Shown here in pieces: positions 15,303 through 22,805 of a stretch of 59,755 bases of DNA. The stretch lies in the NCBI GenBank assembly GCA_012840395.1, contig DULL01000029.1:1-59755 (forward strand). Direction: 5' to 3'. This DNA comes from Clostridiaceae bacterium (lineage in GTDB: Bacteria; Bacillota; Clostridia; Acetivibrionales; DULL01). The number at the start of each line of letters is the position of its first letter. Within the stretch, counting starts at the first letter, position 1. The position numbers were made by a program, and so were the translations under genes. The notes beneath the pieces are model-generated. The model saw nothing but the letters and a program-made list of their open reading frames with translations. It was not told where the DNA came from and searched no databases.

Positions 15303-16346
15303 ATGGCGGCTGTTAATATGGATTTAGATATAAAAATTGATAAACAAAGTACAAGTCCGATTTATAAACAAGTCATTGAACAAATAACTATAGCTGTCAG
15401 AAATGGAGTTCTAAAGTCCGGCGATAAGCTCCCTCCTGAACGAGAACTGGCCCTTCAGCTGGATGTCGCAAGGGGAACCATTAAAAGAGCATATGAGGAA
15501 CTAGAAAGAAATAAAGTTATTGAAGTAATTCAAGGAAGTGGAAGTTTTGTCTCCAAAGAACAGGATGTAGTTGAAGAAAGCAGAAAAGAGAGGGCAATAA
15601 AGCTCATTGACCAGATGCTGGACGAACTCGAATCTCTAAAATTTACATATCGTGAAATATCTACGTTTATTAATTTACGTATAAGAGAAAGAGAAGAAGG
15701 GCTTAAGAAGGTAAGAGTGGCTACAATTGATTGCAATCCGGAAGCCCTGTCAATTTTTATGAGGCAATTATCATATATTAAGAATTTAGAACTTTCCAGA
15801 TTTTTACTTGATGATGTTTTATCATATAAAAAATCAGTGGATATATTAAAATGGTTTGACATTATAATTACTACTTCAAACCACTATCACGATTTATGCA
15901 GGGAAATGCCGGAGCTGACCAATAGAATAATACAGGCGGCTGTATCCCTGAGCAGGCAAACCATTATTGATCTTGCTACCATACCTGAGGATGAAAATAT
16001 TTGTATATTGTGTACCAGTGATATGTTCTTAAATATTATTAGAGAGCACCTCAAAGGTTTTAATATTGATCTTAGTAAGACATACCACGTTTTTGAAAAA
16101 GATATGGATTACTTGCAAGATACACTGAGAAACTGCACTACACTGATAGTGCCTCCTGGCTTTTTTGTGGAAAAGGGAGAATACCTTATTGAAATAATTA
16201 GCGGTTTCAAGGAAAAAGGGGGAAAAATAATTAATTTTGAGTACCAGATTGAACGGGGTTCAATGATGTACATAGAAGAACAAATATCAAATGCGTTAAA
16301 CAATAAAGGAAGCGCAGGGACGGTTCTCTTGAATCCCTTCGGATAA
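15303..16346 (+). CDS. GntR-family regulator of the glutamate mutase operon
   Basis: A 347-residue repressor-type protein. The N-terminal winged helix (about 15-85) has the family stretch L-P-P-E-R-E-L-A and G-T-I-K-R-A-Y-E-E-L. The C-terminal 230 residues resemble a periplasmic-binding-like sensing fold, with an effector I cannot name. The two GGTATATACC sites in its own promoter suggest autoregulation, and no separate promoter is evident before mutS 56 bases downstream, so it likely controls the whole operon. Its last codons (G-S-A-G-T-V-L-L-N-P-F-G) lie within a dispersed repeat. ATG 15318 is an alternative start. Confidence 0.85.
   Translation: MAAVNMDLDIKIDKQSTSPIYKQVIEQITIAVRNGVLKSGDKLPPERELALQLDVARGTIKRAYEELERNKVIEVIQGSGSFVSKEQDVVEESRKERAIKLIDQMLDELESLKFTYREISTFINLRIREREEGLKKVRVATIDCNPEALSIFMRQLSYIKNLELSRFLLDDVLSYKKSVDILKWFDIIITTSNHYHDLCREMPELTNRIIQAAVSLSRQTIIDLATIPEDENICILCTSDMFLNIIREHLKGFNIDLSKTYHVFEKDMDYLQDTLRNCTTLIVPPGFFVEKGEYLIEIISGFKEKGGKIINFEYQIERGSMMYIEEQISNALNNKGSAGTVLLNPFG
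16308..16340. repeat. Degenerate copy of repeat family A in gntR 3' end
   Basis: GGAAGC followed by GGGACGGTTCTC matches the core of the repeats at 19664-19831 and 25577-25605. Here it encodes the last dozen residues of the GntR protein, so insertion or decay of a repeat appears to have set this C terminus. Confidence 0.6.
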
Positions 16347-16402: not shown

Positions 16403-16816
16403 ATGAATGGAAAGACTATTGTTATGGGTGTAATAGGTTCTGATGTACATGCTGTCGGGAACAAAATACTTGAGCTTTGTTTCAGACAGGCAGGTTTTAA
16501 TGTAGTAAACCTGGGAGTCATGGTTTCTCAGGAAGAATTTATAAAAGCAGCAATTGAGACAGCAGCAGATGCAATTATCGTATCATCTCTTTACGGTCAT
16601 GGAGAGATTGATTGCAGGGGATTAAGAGAAAAATGTGATGAAGCGGGTCTGGAGGGAATTCCTCTTTATGTTGGTGGCAATCTGGTAATAGGAAAGCAAC
16701 CTTTTGAAACTGTAGAAAAAAAATTCAAAGCAATGGGTTTCAATAGAGTGTATCCACCTGGAACCTCTCCTGAAATCAGTATCGCTGATCTGAAAAAAGA
16801 TTTGGGAGTTGCCTGA
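16403..16816 (+). CDS. mutS: Methylaspartate mutase small (B12-binding) subunit
   Basis: Sigma subunit (GlmS) of glutamate mutase, which with the epsilon subunit and adenosylcobalamin interconverts L-glutamate and threo-3-methylaspartate. The cobalamin motif D-x-H-x-x-G is present as D-V-H-A-V-G, with the later G-G-N-L segment. From ATG 16403 the length is 137 residues, typical. GGGGTGG precedes it. The stop codon is one base from the mutL start. This symbol is the methylaspartate mutase one, not DNA mismatch repair. Confidence 0.95.
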
Positions 16817-16817
16817 T

Positions 16818-18206
16818 ATGAAACCGATACTTTTAATCGACTTCGGCAGTACGTATACGAAAGTCACTTCTGTTGATGTACAATCGGAAAAAATACTGGG
16901 AACTGCAGAATCATTTACTACAGCCAGTTCAGATATAAGCCAGGGACTTGAAGCAGCTGTTCGCATATTGGAACAAAAAACCGGCAAGATAGAGTACGAA
17001 TACAAATTTGCCTGCAGTAGTGCTGCCGGTGGACTTAAAATGGTTACCATAGGCCTTGTTCCTGACCTTACTGCAGAAGCTGCAAGACGTGCCGCCCTAA
17101 GTGCAGGTGCGAAAGTAGCAGGTGTGTTTTCTTTTGAATTAGATCAGGAAGAATTGGATGAGATACAGGTAATTAAGCCAGATATAGTACTTCTAACAGG
17201 AGGAACAGACGGAGGGAACAAGAGCACCATACTGCATAATGCAGAAAAATTGTCTGTTGTAGAAGGAGATTTCGCCATAGTCGTAGCAGGTAATAAAAGC
17301 GTTGCTTCTAAAGTCAGGGATATACTGCTTTCATCAGGGAAAGAAGTCAGAGTCTGCCAGAATGTTATGCCTGAATTTGGGAAATTAAATATAGAGCCAG
17401 CCAGAGATGCTATAAGGGATTTATTTCTACAAAGGATTATTAAGGCAAAAGGTCTCACGAAAGTACAACAACTGATAGAAGGCATACTAATGCCAACTCC
17501 TTTGGCTGTGTTGAAGGCTGTTCATGTTTTATCCACCGGATATCACAATGAAGATGGATTAGGAGATATTCTTGCCGTTGATGTGGGCGGAGCTACAACA
17601 GACGTATATTCAATTTGTGATGGAAAACCTACACGGGCAGGCGTGGTGATGAAAGGACTTCCAGAACCTTTTGCAAAGAGGACTGTAGAGGGAGATCTTG
17701 GAGTAAGATATGGGTCTGCCAGTTTGACAGAGGTAGTTGGAATAGAAACTATCGCAGGGATATCAGGTCTAAGTGTAGAAGATACCCGATGTTGCCTGGA
17801 TGAAATAAATGCTAATCCCGGTTTACTGCCCGGGAATAATGAAAAACTTGCCAGATTAGATTTTGGATTATCCTCGTTGGCTATCAAAGAAGCCGTTAAC
17901 AGACATGCGGGATATATCCAGGAAATATACACCCCCATGGGGCTTTTATACACACAAACAGGAAAGGATCTTACTGATGTAAGGACGGTAATTGGTACCG
18001 GAGGAGTAATAATTAACAGCAAAAGACCTTTGGAAATTATGAAGAATGTCTTGTACGATCCTGATACGCCTGAAATATTAAAGCCCGTTAATGCTGATAT
18101 ATATATTGATGCCGGATACATACTTGCAGCCATGGGGATTTTGTCTGAGAGGTATCCTGAAATTGCCGTCAGAATTATTAAGAGAGAATTGGAGATGATT
18201 TCATGA
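16818..18206 (+). CDS. mutL: Glutamate mutase accessory protein MutL
   Basis: Actin/Hsp70-fold ATPase encoded between the two mutase subunits in fermenting clostridia, thought to reactivate or repair the B12 enzyme. ATP-fold motifs are [10 protein letters not shown] at the N terminus and [10 protein letters not shown] near the middle. ATG 16818 gives 462 residues. It overlaps mutE by four bases (ATGA). Not related to mismatch-repair MutL. Confidence 0.93.
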
Positions 18207-19654
18207 AAGTGGTTAATAAAAAGCTGGATGAGGAGATTTTTACCAAGCTGCGCCTGGAAGTACTGAACCAGTGGCCTACAGGCAGAGAAGTAAATTTTGA
18301 TGAAGCTGTAGAATACCATAAAAAAATTCCCCGTAAAAAAGTATTTGCCTACCGTTTAGAAAAAGCCAGAAAAAGCAGTGAAACTCTTATACAACCAAGG
18401 GCTGGTGTAGCATTAACCGATGAGCATATTGAACTCCTTAAATTCCTTGAAGAGCAGGGAGAAGCAGATTTATTACCTACAACCATAGACAGCTATACCA
18501 GGCAGAACAGATATGAAGAAGCAGAAAAAGGAATGGAAGAAAGCATGATAAAGGGAAGATCCCTTTTAAATGGATATCCTGCAGTCAACCAGGGTATAAA
18601 GAACTGCAGACGAATAAATGAATCAGTGAATCTGCCTGTCCAGGTTAGACATGGTACCCCTGATGCAAGACTGCTTGCGGAAATATCTATTGCCGGGGGT
18701 TTTACAGCCTTCGAAGGGGGCGGCATATCATATAATATTCCTTATGCTAAAAATGCATCTGTTGAAAAAACAATATACGACTGGCAGTATGTGGACAGAC
18801 TTGTAGGATTGTATGAAGAAGCAGGAGTATCAATCAACAGAGAACCTTTCGGCCCTTTAACAGGTACTTTGGTCCCGCCCTGTATCTCTCATGCGGTAGC
18901 GATTATAGAAAGCCTGTTGGCAGCAGAACAGGGTGTAAAAAGTATTACTGTCGGTTATGGACAATGTGGAAATCTGATACAGGATGTGGCGGCTGTAAAA
19001 ACATTAGAAAAACTCACAGAAGAATATTTGCATATGTTTGGCTACAAAAATGTAACAATAACCACTGTATTTCATCAATGGATGGGCGGATTCCCGCAGG
19101 ATGAGGCTAAAGCTTTCGGTGTTATTTCCTGGGGAGCCGCTGCGGCAGCATTATCAGGAGCTACTAAGGTTATTGTTAAGTCACCTCATGAAGCCTTGGG
19201 TATACCTACCAAGGAGGCAAATGCAGCAGGACTTAGGGCTACAAAACAGCTGATAACCATGCTGAGGGATCAGAAAATGCCTTTAACCAATGAATTAGAG
19301 AAAGAAATGGAGATAATAATTGAGGAAACCAGGTGCATATTAAACAGGGTATATGAACTTGGTGAGGGTGATATTGCCATCGGTACTGTAAGAGCTTTTG
19401 AAGCAGGGGTGATTGATGTGCCTTTTGCTCCAAGCAAGTATAATATGGGGAAAGTACTTCCCGCGAGAGACAACAACGGAGCTGTACGTCTTCTGGATTG
19501 TGGCAATATACCTTTCAGCAAAGACATTATCGACTTCCACAAGGCAAAAATAGAAGAAAGGGCAAAATATGAAAAAAGGGAAGTTAGCTTTCAGATGGTT
19601 ATAGATGATATATATGCTATTGGAAAAGGTTACCTGGTAGGCCGCCCCAGATAG
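18203..19654 (+). CDS. mutE: Methylaspartate mutase large (epsilon) subunit
   Basis: Catalytic TIM-barrel subunit (GlmE) of adenosylcobalamin-dependent glutamate mutase; 483 residues, as in the family. Characteristic stretches include V-R-H-G-T-P-D-A-R and [12 protein letters not shown], and [11 protein letters not shown] downstream. The start overlaps the mutL stop. It produces 3-methylaspartate for the lyase encoded after a 199-base repeat-filled gap. Confidence 0.95.
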
Positions 19655-19663
19655 AAGCATGAG

Positions 19664-19831
19664 GGAAGCAGAGGGGAAGCAGAGGGACGGTTCCTCTGCT
19701 TCCAAAAGAGAGATGGTTCTTCTTCCTTTCTCTTTCCGAAGAAAGAAGCAGAAGAGGAAGCAAGAGAACCGTCCCCATGCTTCCGAAGAAAGAAGCAGAA
19801 GAGGAAGCAAGAGAACCGTCCCCATGCTTCC
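19664..19831. repeat. Repeat family A: tandem GGGACGGTTC palindromes
   Basis: Three hairpins in the mutE-mal gap. The first has GGAAGCAGAGG at 19675-19685 paired with CCTCTGCTTCC at 19693-19703 and a loop GACGGTT; the left arm is itself duplicated at 19664-19674. Two more are in exact 47-base direct repeats (19738-19784 and 19785-19831), each with GGAAGCA pairing TGCTTCC around a loop containing GAACCGTCCCC. They lie inside an operon and may attenuate or protect mRNA. Confidence 0.85.
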
Positions 19832-19853
19832 AAAAATATAGGAGGAATAAATA

Positions 19854-21113
19854 ATGAAAATCGTTGATATAGTTTGTGCAAAAGGGCGTACAGGGTTTTT
19901 TTTCGACGATCAGAGAGCCATTAAAAAAGGTGCCATACCTGATGGAGAAACATATAAAGGAGAGCCGGTTACACCGGGATTTACAGCAGTAAGGCAAGCA
20001 GGTGAATCAATATCAGTTATGCTTGTTTTGGAAGATGGACAGATAGCTTACGGAGATTGTGCGGCAGTTCAATACTCAGGAGCAGGAGGAAGGGATCCGC
20101 TTTTTCTTGCAGAAGATTTTATTCCTGTTATTGAAAAATATGTAACTCCATGCTTGATAGGAAAAGAACTGGACAGCTTCAGGCAGCTTGCAGTAGAAGT
20201 GGACCAGATAGTAAATCCCGCTACAGGCAATAAACTTCATACCGCCATACGCTATGGCGTAACCCAGGCAGTACTGGATGCAGTAGCAAAGGCTCAAAGA
20301 AAGCTAATGACAGAGGTTGTCGCTTCAGAATACGGAACAGAGGTCTCTGACAGAGAGATACCAATTTTTACACAATCCGGCGATGAAAGGTATAATAATG
20401 TTGATAAGATGATTATCAAAGGTGCTCAGGTTCTTCCCCATGGATTAATTAACAATGTCTCAACAAAACTGGGTGAGAAGGGTGAACTTCTTTTAAAATA
20501 TGTTAAGTGGCTTAAAGACAGAATAATACAATTAAAGCCTTATGAGGATTATACTCCTGTAATTCATATAGATGTTTATGGAACAATCGGCATTGCATTC
20601 AATAATGATTACGATATGATGGAGAACTATCTTGCTGAACTGGGAAAAGTGGCTGCACCTTTTAAGCTGCGCATAGAAGGGCCTATTGATGTGGAAGAAC
20701 GTGAAGGCCAAATGCTTGCTCTTAAAGAATTAACAGAAAGAATAGATAAAAGAGGTATCAACGTACAGATTGTAGCAGATGAATGGTGCAACACTCTTGA
20801 AGATATCAAATATTTTGCGGATAACAGAGCAGGGCATATGATCCAGATTAAAACACCCGATCTTGGCGGTATTAATAATACTGTTGAAGCAGTGCTTTAC
20901 TGTAAGGAAAAAGGTGTAGGAGCTTATCAGGGAGGAACCTGCAATGAAACAGACCGCTCAGCACAGGTATGCGTACATCTTGCTATGGCCACAAAACCAG
21001 ATCAGATTCTTGCAAAACCTGGAATGGGTGTGGATGAAGGATTGATGATAGTTTATAATGAGATGCAAAGAATTCTTGCACTAAGGAATCGGATTAATCG
21101 GAATAAGGAGTGA
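19854..21113 (+). CDS. mal: Methylaspartate ammonia-lyase
   Basis: Enolase-superfamily enzyme that removes ammonia from threo-3-methylaspartate to give mesaconate. The 419-residue length is as expected. The catalytic lysine is in I-Q-I-K-T-P-D-L-G-G, and metal ligands are in the D-V-Y-G-T and E-G-P-I and D-E-W regions. AGGAGG precedes the ATG. With mutS-L-E it forms the first two steps of the methylaspartate route of glutamate fermentation. Confidence 0.96.
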   Translation: MKIVDIVCAKGRTGFFFDDQRAIKKGAIPDGETYKGEPVTPGFTAVRQAGESISVMLVLEDGQIAYGDCAAVQYSGAGGRDPLFLAEDFIPVIEKYVTPCLIGKELDSFRQLAVEVDQIVNPATGNKLHTAIRYGVTQAVLDAVAKAQRKLMTEVVASEYGTEVSDREIPIFTQSGDERYNNVDKMIIKGAQVLPHGLINNVSTKLGEKGELLLKYVKWLKDRIIQLKPYEDYTPVIHIDVYGTIGIAFNNDYDMMENYLAELGKVAAPFKLRIEGPIDVEEREGQMLALKELTERIDKRGINVQIVADEWCNTLEDIKYFADNRAGHMIQIKTPDLGGINNTVEAVLYCKEKGVGAYQGGTCNETDRSAQVCVHLAMATKPDQILAKPGMGVDEGLMIVYNEMQRILALRNRINRNKE

Positions 21114-21120
21114 TTGATAA

Positions 21121-22491
21121 ATGGAAGAGTTAAAGGTTTTATCCCCAACAGGTATACTGGGTTATGGATTTCCTATGGCATCCTTTGAAAAGGGAATGGA
21201 GAAACATCCCGATGTTATAGCCGTAGATGCGGGGTCAACTGATCCCGGGCCATATTATTTAGGCGCAGGCGTATCTTTTACCGACAGAAATGCAGTAAAG
21301 AGGGATCTTGAAATATTAATTCCCGCAGCAATTGAAGAAGATATTCCCCTGATAATAGGTTCTGCAGGGGGAAGCGGCGGTAACCCACACTTGGAATGGA
21401 ATCTTGAAATTATAAAGGAAATTGCTGAAGAAAAAGGATTAAGCTTTAAATTAGCAGTTATCAGAGCAGAGATTGATAAGGGATATGTAGTTGAAATGTT
21501 AAGAAAAGGGAAAGTTACTCCTTTGCATCCTGCACCGGACATCACCGAAGATGAGCTTGAGAAAACCACCAGAATTGTTGGACAGATGGGCTTGGAGCCT
21601 ATTGTGAAAGCACTGGATGAAAGCGCCCGGGTCATACTTGCAGGCAGGGCATATGATCCCTCAGTGTTTGCTGCTATGGCGGTAAAAAGAGGATATGATA
21701 AAGGTTTGGCTTTACATATGGGAAAAATTCTTGAATGTGCCTGTATCGCAGCTGTACCTGGCAGCGGGAGTGACTGCATGATTGGGTATCTTGGAAAGGA
21801 CTATTTTATTGTGGAACCTCTTAATCCTGCAAGAAAATGTACCACTCTTTCTGTTGCAGCCCACACGCTGTATGAAAAAACAAATCCTTATATTCTGCCA
21901 GGCCCTGGAGGAGTTCTGGATTTAACCAATACAAAGTTTGAACAATATACAGATAATGCTGTCAAAGTTTCAGGAAGCAGATTTATTCCTTCTGAAAGCT
22001 ACACTATAAAACTTGAAGGAGTAAAGAAAACCGGCTACAGGACGGTATCAATTGCAGGGACTAGAGACCCTATAGCCATAAGTAAAATTGATGATATAAT
22101 TTCTGGAGTAAAAGAAAGAGTCGACGATAATTTCAAAGATGCTAAATTTGAATATTTCCTGGATTTCAAAGTGTACGGGAAATCAGGAGTTATGGGTGCT
22201 TTAGAGCCTGAAGAGAAGGTAGCAGGTCATGAACTAGGAATTATTATTGAAGCTGTAGCCGAGAGCCAGGAAATTGCCAATACAATATGCAGTTTTGCCC
22301 GTTCCACCATGCTGCACTATGGATATGAAGGCAGGATATCAACGGCAGGCAATCTGGCATTTCCATATTCACCTTCAGATTTTAAGGCTGGAGAAGTGTA
22401 TGTATTTAATGTATATCACATTGTTCAGGTGGAGGACCCCTGTGAACTGTTCCCTATGGAGATTATTGAGATGGGAGGCGGAAAAAGGTGA
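21121..22491 (+). CDS. AtuA-family (DUF1446-like) protein
   Basis: A 456-residue cytoplasmic protein that I recognise as AtuA-like by the N-terminal V-D-A-G-S-T-D-P-G-P-Y-Y-L-G-A-G stretch, G-S-A-G-G-S-G-G and A-G-R-A-Y-D-P. AtuA is known from acyclic terpene degradation clusters, where its reaction is not settled to my knowledge. Here it starts seven bases after mal and overlaps the DUF4387 gene by four bases. Because no mesaconase or citramalate lyase gene is in the operon, it may act on mesaconate or citramalate; this is inference. Confidence 0.8.
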   Translation: MEELKVLSPTGILGYGFPMASFEKGMEKHPDVIAVDAGSTDPGPYYLGAGVSFTDRNAVKRDLEILIPAAIEEDIPLIIGSAGGSGGNPHLEWNLEIIKEIAEEKGLSFKLAVIRAEIDKGYVVEMLRKGKVTPLHPAPDITEDELEKTTRIVGQMGLEPIVKALDESARVILAGRAYDPSVFAAMAVKRGYDKGLALHMGKILECACIAAVPGSGSDCMIGYLGKDYFIVEPLNPARKCTTLSVAAHTLYEKTNPYILPGPGGVLDLTNTKFEQYTDNAVKVSGSRFIPSESYTIKLEGVKKTGYRTVSIAGTRDPIAISKIDDIISGVKERVDDNFKDAKFEYFLDFKVYGKSGVMGALEPEEKVAGHELGIIIEAVAESQEIANTICSFARSTMLHYGYEGRISTAGNLAFPYSPSDFKAGEVYVFNVYHIVQVEDPCELFPMEIIEMGGGKR

Positions 22492-22805
22492 AAGTAAGGC
22501 TGATTGACATTGCAGAGGTTATACGAAGTAAAAATTCCGGCCCTTATGAACTTACATTTGATATAATATTTAAAGATTGGGATATGTTTTATAAAGTATG
22601 TAATGCAAAGGCAATTAATAAAAAATTAATAAGCGGCTTATACGGAATATCTGAAGAACAGGTTATAAACATAATTGAATTTATACCTGCGAAAGCCATA
22701 AAAGCTACTATTGTCAGGCCTATTGCTTCCGGAGAGCTGGGAGAAACCGATGTTTACGGTGCACAGCAACATGCTCCTTTATTAAACCTTGTACTGGAAG
22801 TATAA
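22488..22805 (+). CDS. DUF4387-domain protein
   Basis: A 105-residue protein starting at GTG inside the end of the AtuA gene (GTGA overlap), hence translationally coupled. The family-like stretches are S-K-N-S-G-P-Y-E-L-T-F-D and the C-terminal G-E-T-D-V-Y-G-A-Q-Q-H-A-P-L-L. No transmembrane segment or signal peptide. Probable stable partner or subunit of the AtuA-like protein; function unknown. Confidence 0.8.
   Translation: MKVRLIDIAEVIRSKNSGPYELTFDIIFKDWDMFYKVCNAKAINKKLISGLYGISEEQVINIIEFIPAKAIKATIVRPIASGELGETDVYGAQQHAPLLNLVLEV

Follow-up and report, generated by a model that had tools for sequence, protein, structure and literature searches.

A gene pair of the AtuA and DUF4387 families probably serves as the citramalate lyase of a clostridial methylaspartate operon

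The AtuA-family gene and the DUF4387 gene that directly follow mal in the window (the whole stretch of 59,755 nucleotides of Clostridiaceae bacterium DNA that was analysed) very probably encode a two-subunit citramalate lyase, CmlAB, which would end the methylaspartate route. The orthology of this pair to a deposited citramalate lyase is shown by sequence, fold, tree and operon position, and the activity and mechanism of the window protein itself are predicted. According to this model, glutamate would be converted via methylaspartate, mesaconate and citramalate to acetate and pyruvate, and pyruvate would then enter the pyruvate:ferredoxin oxidoreductase step. In this scheme, (S)-citramalate would be formed from mesaconate by a mesaconase of the class I fumarase type, whose genes lie at another site in the genome, and would then be cleaved to acetate and pyruvate by CmlAB. 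POR-domain genes, as found in pyruvate:ferredoxin oxidoreductase, are present in the same genome.

The operon runs in the order GntR, glmS, glmL/mutL, glmE, mal, AtuA-family gene and DUF4387 gene, followed after a gap of about 250 bases by a gene for a P-loop protein of 319 amino acids (Table 1). Families were assigned to the window genes with Pfam and NCBIfam profiles, and the four pathway genes score above curated cut-offs. The AtuA-family gene begins 7 bases past the end of mal, and its stop codon (22489-22491) overlaps the DUF4387 gene, which starts with GTG at 22488, such that the two genes share 4 bases. No hydratase or citrate-lyase gene was detected within the window operon with Pfam or NCBIfam. 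Thus, the coordinates and both profile collections agree with the sequence-only reading, which had described a coupled AtuA and DUF4387 pair after mal in an operon lacking such genes. The pair matches only PF07287 and PF14330, and the PF05681 and PF05683 domains of class I fumarase-type mesaconases are absent from it. Several related operons are likewise headed by a similar GntR gene. The region between glmE and mal (19620-19880) exhibits apparent internal repeats, and minus-strand reading frames there repeat 'EAWGRFSCFLFCFFLRK'-like text; this region is possibly a short interspersed repeat.

Table 1. Genes of the methylaspartate operon in the window and the matches that support their assignment.
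Feature	Position	Strand	Evidence
GntR-family regulator, upstream of the operon	15303..16346	+	PF00392 E 6.4e-17
glmS, methylaspartate (glutamate) mutase S subunit	16403..16816	+	NF002612 222 bits, cut-off 110
glmL/mutL, glutamate mutase accessory (reactivating) protein	16809..18206	+	NF040745 628 bits, cut-off 475
glmE, methylaspartate mutase E subunit	18203..19654	+	TIGR01503 788 bits, cut-off 390
mal, methylaspartate ammonia-lyase	19854..21113	+	TIGR01502 601 bits, cut-off 286
cmlA, predicted citramalate lyase subunit A (AtuA family)	21121..22491	+	PF07287 E 3.1e-23; 9erq_A E 1.1e-159
cmlB, predicted citramalate lyase subunit B (DUF4387)	22488..22805	+	PF14330 E 5.9e-39; 9erq_B E 8.8e-27
Conserved P-loop protein, 319 amino acids	23056..24015	+	Recurrence in mal operons

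A sequence search of the PDB returned one significant match for each gene, and both genes led to the same two entries, 9erq and 9evf, in which the AtuA-family chain was deposited as citramalate lyase subunit A (cmlA) and the DUF4387 chain as subunit B (cmlB). Both matches are full length. Subunit A (456 amino acids) aligns over positions 4-442 with 54.7% identity to 9erq_A and subunit B (105 amino acids) over positions 1-102 with about 42% identity to 9erq_B, and at only 55% and about 42% identity the substrate preference could differ somewhat from that of the deposited protein. Structure models were built from alignments of 40 (A) and 16 (B) homologues with the E. coli rows left out (pLDDT 92.3 and 88.9, respectively). 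The A model superimposes on 9evf_A with a Z score of 51.1 (1.9 Å, 450 residues; next best chain Z 9.3), and the B model on 9evf_B with a Z score of 17.2 (1.7 Å, 104 residues; next best chain Z 7.5). Fold matches of the A model beyond 9evf are middling and limited to a ferredoxin-like segment (residues about 303-427), and they were not taken as kinship. Entry 9evf, entitled 'Citramalate lyase - ADP - pyruvate complex', was released on 2025-10-08, and our literature search, whose coverage omits most subscription journals, found no paper on either entry.

The deposited subunit A is 92% identical to ECs_0760 of E. coli O157:H7 Sakai. There, ECs_0760 and ECs_0759 (L115:46933-48617) are the AtuA and DUF4387 subunits; they are flanked by mal and fumD, and a transporter gene adjoins fumD. 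The window pair resembles this system in the presence of both subunits, in their lengths and fold and in the family-wide invariant residues, and the E. coli counterpart also has mal and class I fumarase partners. It differs in that the fumarase pair of the window genome lies outside the operon, and in that the 319-amino acid P-loop gene follows the window pair. In Enterobacteriaceae and Dictyoglomus, Kronen and Berg (2015) had already noted that mal is followed by a DUF1446 (AtuA) gene of unknown function, and they could offer no explanation for what becomes of citramalate in E. coli O157 (PMC4682846). Similarly, the Vallitalea genome paper of 2018 described citramalate lyase as the only missing pathway step and suspected a different enzyme (PMC6163223). 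A Vallitalea metagenome-assembled genome carries an AtuA gene with 72% identity in its mal operon.

In a quick maximum-likelihood tree, in which long branches are flagged in the non-mal clades, the window AtuA protein groups with 9erq, the E. coli O157 protein and all 46 mal-adjacent copies. It keeps all 34 family-wide invariant CmlA columns. The invariant CmlA residues include D36, D41, R176, D179, K202, E205, H248, Y251, E252, K297, E299, R315, D316 and E371. In addition, the CmlA group is set apart from a non-mal clade by 50 residues; the window protein carries 49 of them and 9erq all 50, compared with none in the second AtuA copy of the window genome (contig 83). The single departure from this signature is an I instead of an L at position 434. 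Strictly conserved polar residues are also found in the DUF4387 subunit (R13, S14, K15, N16, K72, R77, Q93 and Q94), and this conservation suggests that the smaller subunit may contribute to the active site.

The distribution of the pair was surveyed in 398 genomes drawn from the phylum, with the main counts made before the structure match was known. There are 74 genomes with mal (PF07476). DUF4387 is present in 60 of these versus 32 of the 324 without mal (Fisher p about 6e-34), and it is found in 30 of the 38 mal-bearing families. CitF occurs in 14 of the 74, one weak match included; a match of 30.8 bits in genome G010 was treated as spurious. Gene order could be read at 67 mal loci, among which 47 carry AtuA-DUF4387, five carry CitDEF, none carries both and 15 carry neither. 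This mutual exclusion has a Fisher p of 0.0016, although the Fisher values are only a guide because the genomes are related. Thus, the arrangement of AtuA-DUF4387 with mal is not due to chance, and the survey suggests that mal operons of this phylum more commonly have CmlAB than CitDEF as their citramalate lyase. Five of the 15 genomes with neither arrangement at the locus (G084, G119, G151, G203 and G228) have a pair of the CmlA group at another locus, which in three cases lies near a class I fumarase. In four mal-bearing genomes (G020, G068, G111 and G141) neither DUF4387 nor CitF was found, which indicates either further pathway endings or a lyase that escaped detection. In a wider collection that includes Bacillota, Bacteroidota and Spirochaetota, 80 named genomes were examined, and no CitF lies in their fetched flanks. 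Petroclostridium and Petrimonas are examples of anaerobes with the same operon.

The sequence-only reading had placed the pair in the position where both a mesaconase and a citramalate lyase are expected. The lyase part of this claim is borne out by the 9erq/9evf match and the survey, whereas the mesaconase part is contradicted by the two hydratase pairs encoded elsewhere in the genome and by the class I fumarases that stand side by side with AtuA-DUF4387 in many related operons. Hydration of mesaconate to citramalate by the pair would accord with its location directly after mal and with the lack of a later hydratase in the window operon, but we consider this function highly improbable. Of the 74 mal-bearing genomes, 69 have a class I fumarase alpha domain, and a class I fumarase is included within the fetched stretch at 16 of the AtuA-DUF4387 mal loci. 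Among the 80 named loci, 64 have mal and 41 have a class I fumarase. Moreover, fumD, which shares the E. coli O157 cluster with the pair, encodes a biochemically shown mesaconase (PMC4682846), and the homologous structure both carries the name citramalate lyase and binds pyruvate, a product of the lyase reaction. Because the pair alternates with CitDEF while the class I fumarase is retained, the pair fills the slot of the citramalate lyase and the mesaconase stays. We therefore conclude that AtuA-DUF4387 replaces citramalate lyase and not mesaconase.

Whether separate genes for the two steps exist elsewhere in the genome has a divided answer, with mesaconase-type genes present (contigs 97 and 46) and a citrate-lyase-type citramalate lyase absent, as judged from the lack of any CitF (PF04223) match. 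Contig 97 carries a complete class I fumarase pair that scores above the NCBIfam cut-offs of PRK06246 and PRK06842. Its subunits are 60-66% identical to those inside mal operons, which makes them the best mesaconase candidates. A second, tartrate-dehydratase-like hydratase pair on contig 46 (L036:5505-7056) is 58-70% identical to hydratase pairs that neighbour AtuA-DUF4387 at three mal-free loci (L125, L209 and L213). The genome has only two genes of the HpcH/HpaI family, which is the family that holds CitE. Their products, of 277 and 283 amino acids, look like HpaI-type aldolases when the sequences are judged by eye; one gene adjoins an amidohydrolase and a short-chain dehydrogenase gene, and the other adjoins an AraC-type regulator. 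The same genome also has a second aconitase-family member and a LeuC-type gene.

The pair might instead act on a CoA ester, either citramalyl-CoA or mesaconyl-CoA, in the manner of its terpene and naphthalene relatives. The substrates of AtuA and ThnQ/ThnS are CoA esters (PMC4847356, PMC12016498), and the ADP of 9evf could sit in a CoA-like site. However, the deposited entry is named citramalate lyase and has pyruvate bound, and the window operon has no gene for a CoA-transferase or CoA-ligase (the gene-order tables for other loci covered chosen families only). Action on a CoA ester is thus very unlikely in our judgement. It is also conceivable that the pair is a related but different lyase, acting for example on another 2-hydroxy dicarboxylate, that owes its operon position to hitch-hiking. 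The family does have other clades in other contexts, but the window protein clusters with 9erq among the mal-linked copies and shows the residue signature of that group, and the same operon slot is taken alternately by CitDEF and by the pair. We regard this explanation as almost certainly wrong. The suggestion of the sequence-only reading that the pair may perform or assist a step on the branched C5 acids of the pathway is thus supported, and the acid indicated by the 9erq/9evf homology and the operon survey is citramalate.

The expected CmlAB reaction and the place in the mal operon are those of the classical citramalate lyase of Clostridium tetanomorphum, which consists of CitDEF plus CitC/X/G (PMC4682846). 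In contrast, the classical enzyme belongs to other protein families and employs an acetyl-ACP mechanism, and the window genome has no CitF. CmlAB would need none of the acetyl-ACP apparatus (CitC, D, E, F, G and X), whose place in the operon it takes. It probably acts by retro-aldol cleavage of a tertiary beta-hydroxy carboxylate, with release of a free carboxylate. The parallel with terpene breakdown drawn by the sequence-only reading is apt, since AtuA is tentatively an acetate-releasing lyase in that pathway that would cleave at a tertiary alcohol (PMC4847356), although its substrate is a CoA ester and the likeness was drawn by description and not by sequence. Another such case is the 'AtuA-like lyase' ThnQ/ThnS of anaerobic naphthalene degradation, an adjacent AtuA-like pair for which C-C cleavage next to a tertiary hydroxyl is given as unpublished results (PMC12016498); it differs in having a cyclic CoA-ester substrate, and it too was likened by description and not by sequence. 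A tertiary alcohol in the beta position to a carboxylate is common to citramalate, 3-hydroxy-3-isohexenylglutaryl-CoA and the Thn substrate, and the same retro-aldol cleavage may therefore fit all three. The ADP and pyruvate of 9evf indicate that a nucleotide site exists in the homologue. The nucleotide might be catalytic, for example in a transient acyl-phosphate activation, or might mimic the ADP moiety of a CoA-like group.

The second AtuA-DUF4387 pair of the window genome (contig 83, L004:8240-10042) belongs to a separate clade of 13 members, none of them mal-adjacent, with 36-38% identity. It adjoins an ABC sugar-type transporter, a GntR regulator and a NagA-like amidohydrolase, and its relatives stand close to amidohydrolases, peptidase C26 or peptide transporters. 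Another AtuA-DUF4387 clade (L124, L127, L134 and L049) is found with an FCD-type GntR gene and the tricarboxylate transporter genes TctC/TctB/TctA. This transporter context suggests that members of the TctABC-linked clade are lyases for another tri- or dicarboxylate. One of these loci (L134, from G381) additionally has an aconitase gene upstream and CitDEF downstream of its pair. It is the sole locus seen with both AtuA-DUF4387 and CitDEF, although its pair is of another clade and the genome has no mal match. Speculatively, and with a probability that we hold to be low, AtuA-DUF4387 pairs could be general lyases for tertiary beta-hydroxy carboxylates that yield a free carboxylate by a route independent of acyl carriers, and different substrates would be served by different sub-families. 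Under this reading, the TctABC-linked clade would represent a lyase for a citrate-like acid that has so far gone unrecognised, and the 9evf nucleotide would be catalytic, perhaps through an ATP/ADP acyl-phosphate cycle.

The enzyme type was already known, as the 2025 structures name the pair, and so was the link between AtuA and mal (2015), but most databases have yet to adopt the name. The new findings are the extent of the replacement, the CmlA-specific residue signature, the non-mal clade that includes the paralogue in the same genome, and the TctABC-linked clade. In many anaerobes that apparently lack a citramalate lyase, CmlAB would complete the methylaspartate pathway by supplying its final step, with Vallitalea and E. 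coli O157 as the cases in print. Annotators can rename pairs that are filed as 'acyclic terpene utilization' plus DUF4387, or, in E. coli O157, those that RefSeq labels '3-methylaspartate ammonia-lyase' (ECs_0760) and 'acyl-CoA synthetase' (ECs_0759).

The protein encoded after the pair carries a Walker A-like (P-loop) motif, GDAGAGKS, and gave no Pfam, NCBIfam or significant PDB match. Its gene is found in 34 of the 47 AtuA-DUF4387 mal loci and in eight of the 15 mal loci that lack both the pair and CitF, is missing from all five CitDEF mal loci, and recurs in 51 of the 80 named loci.
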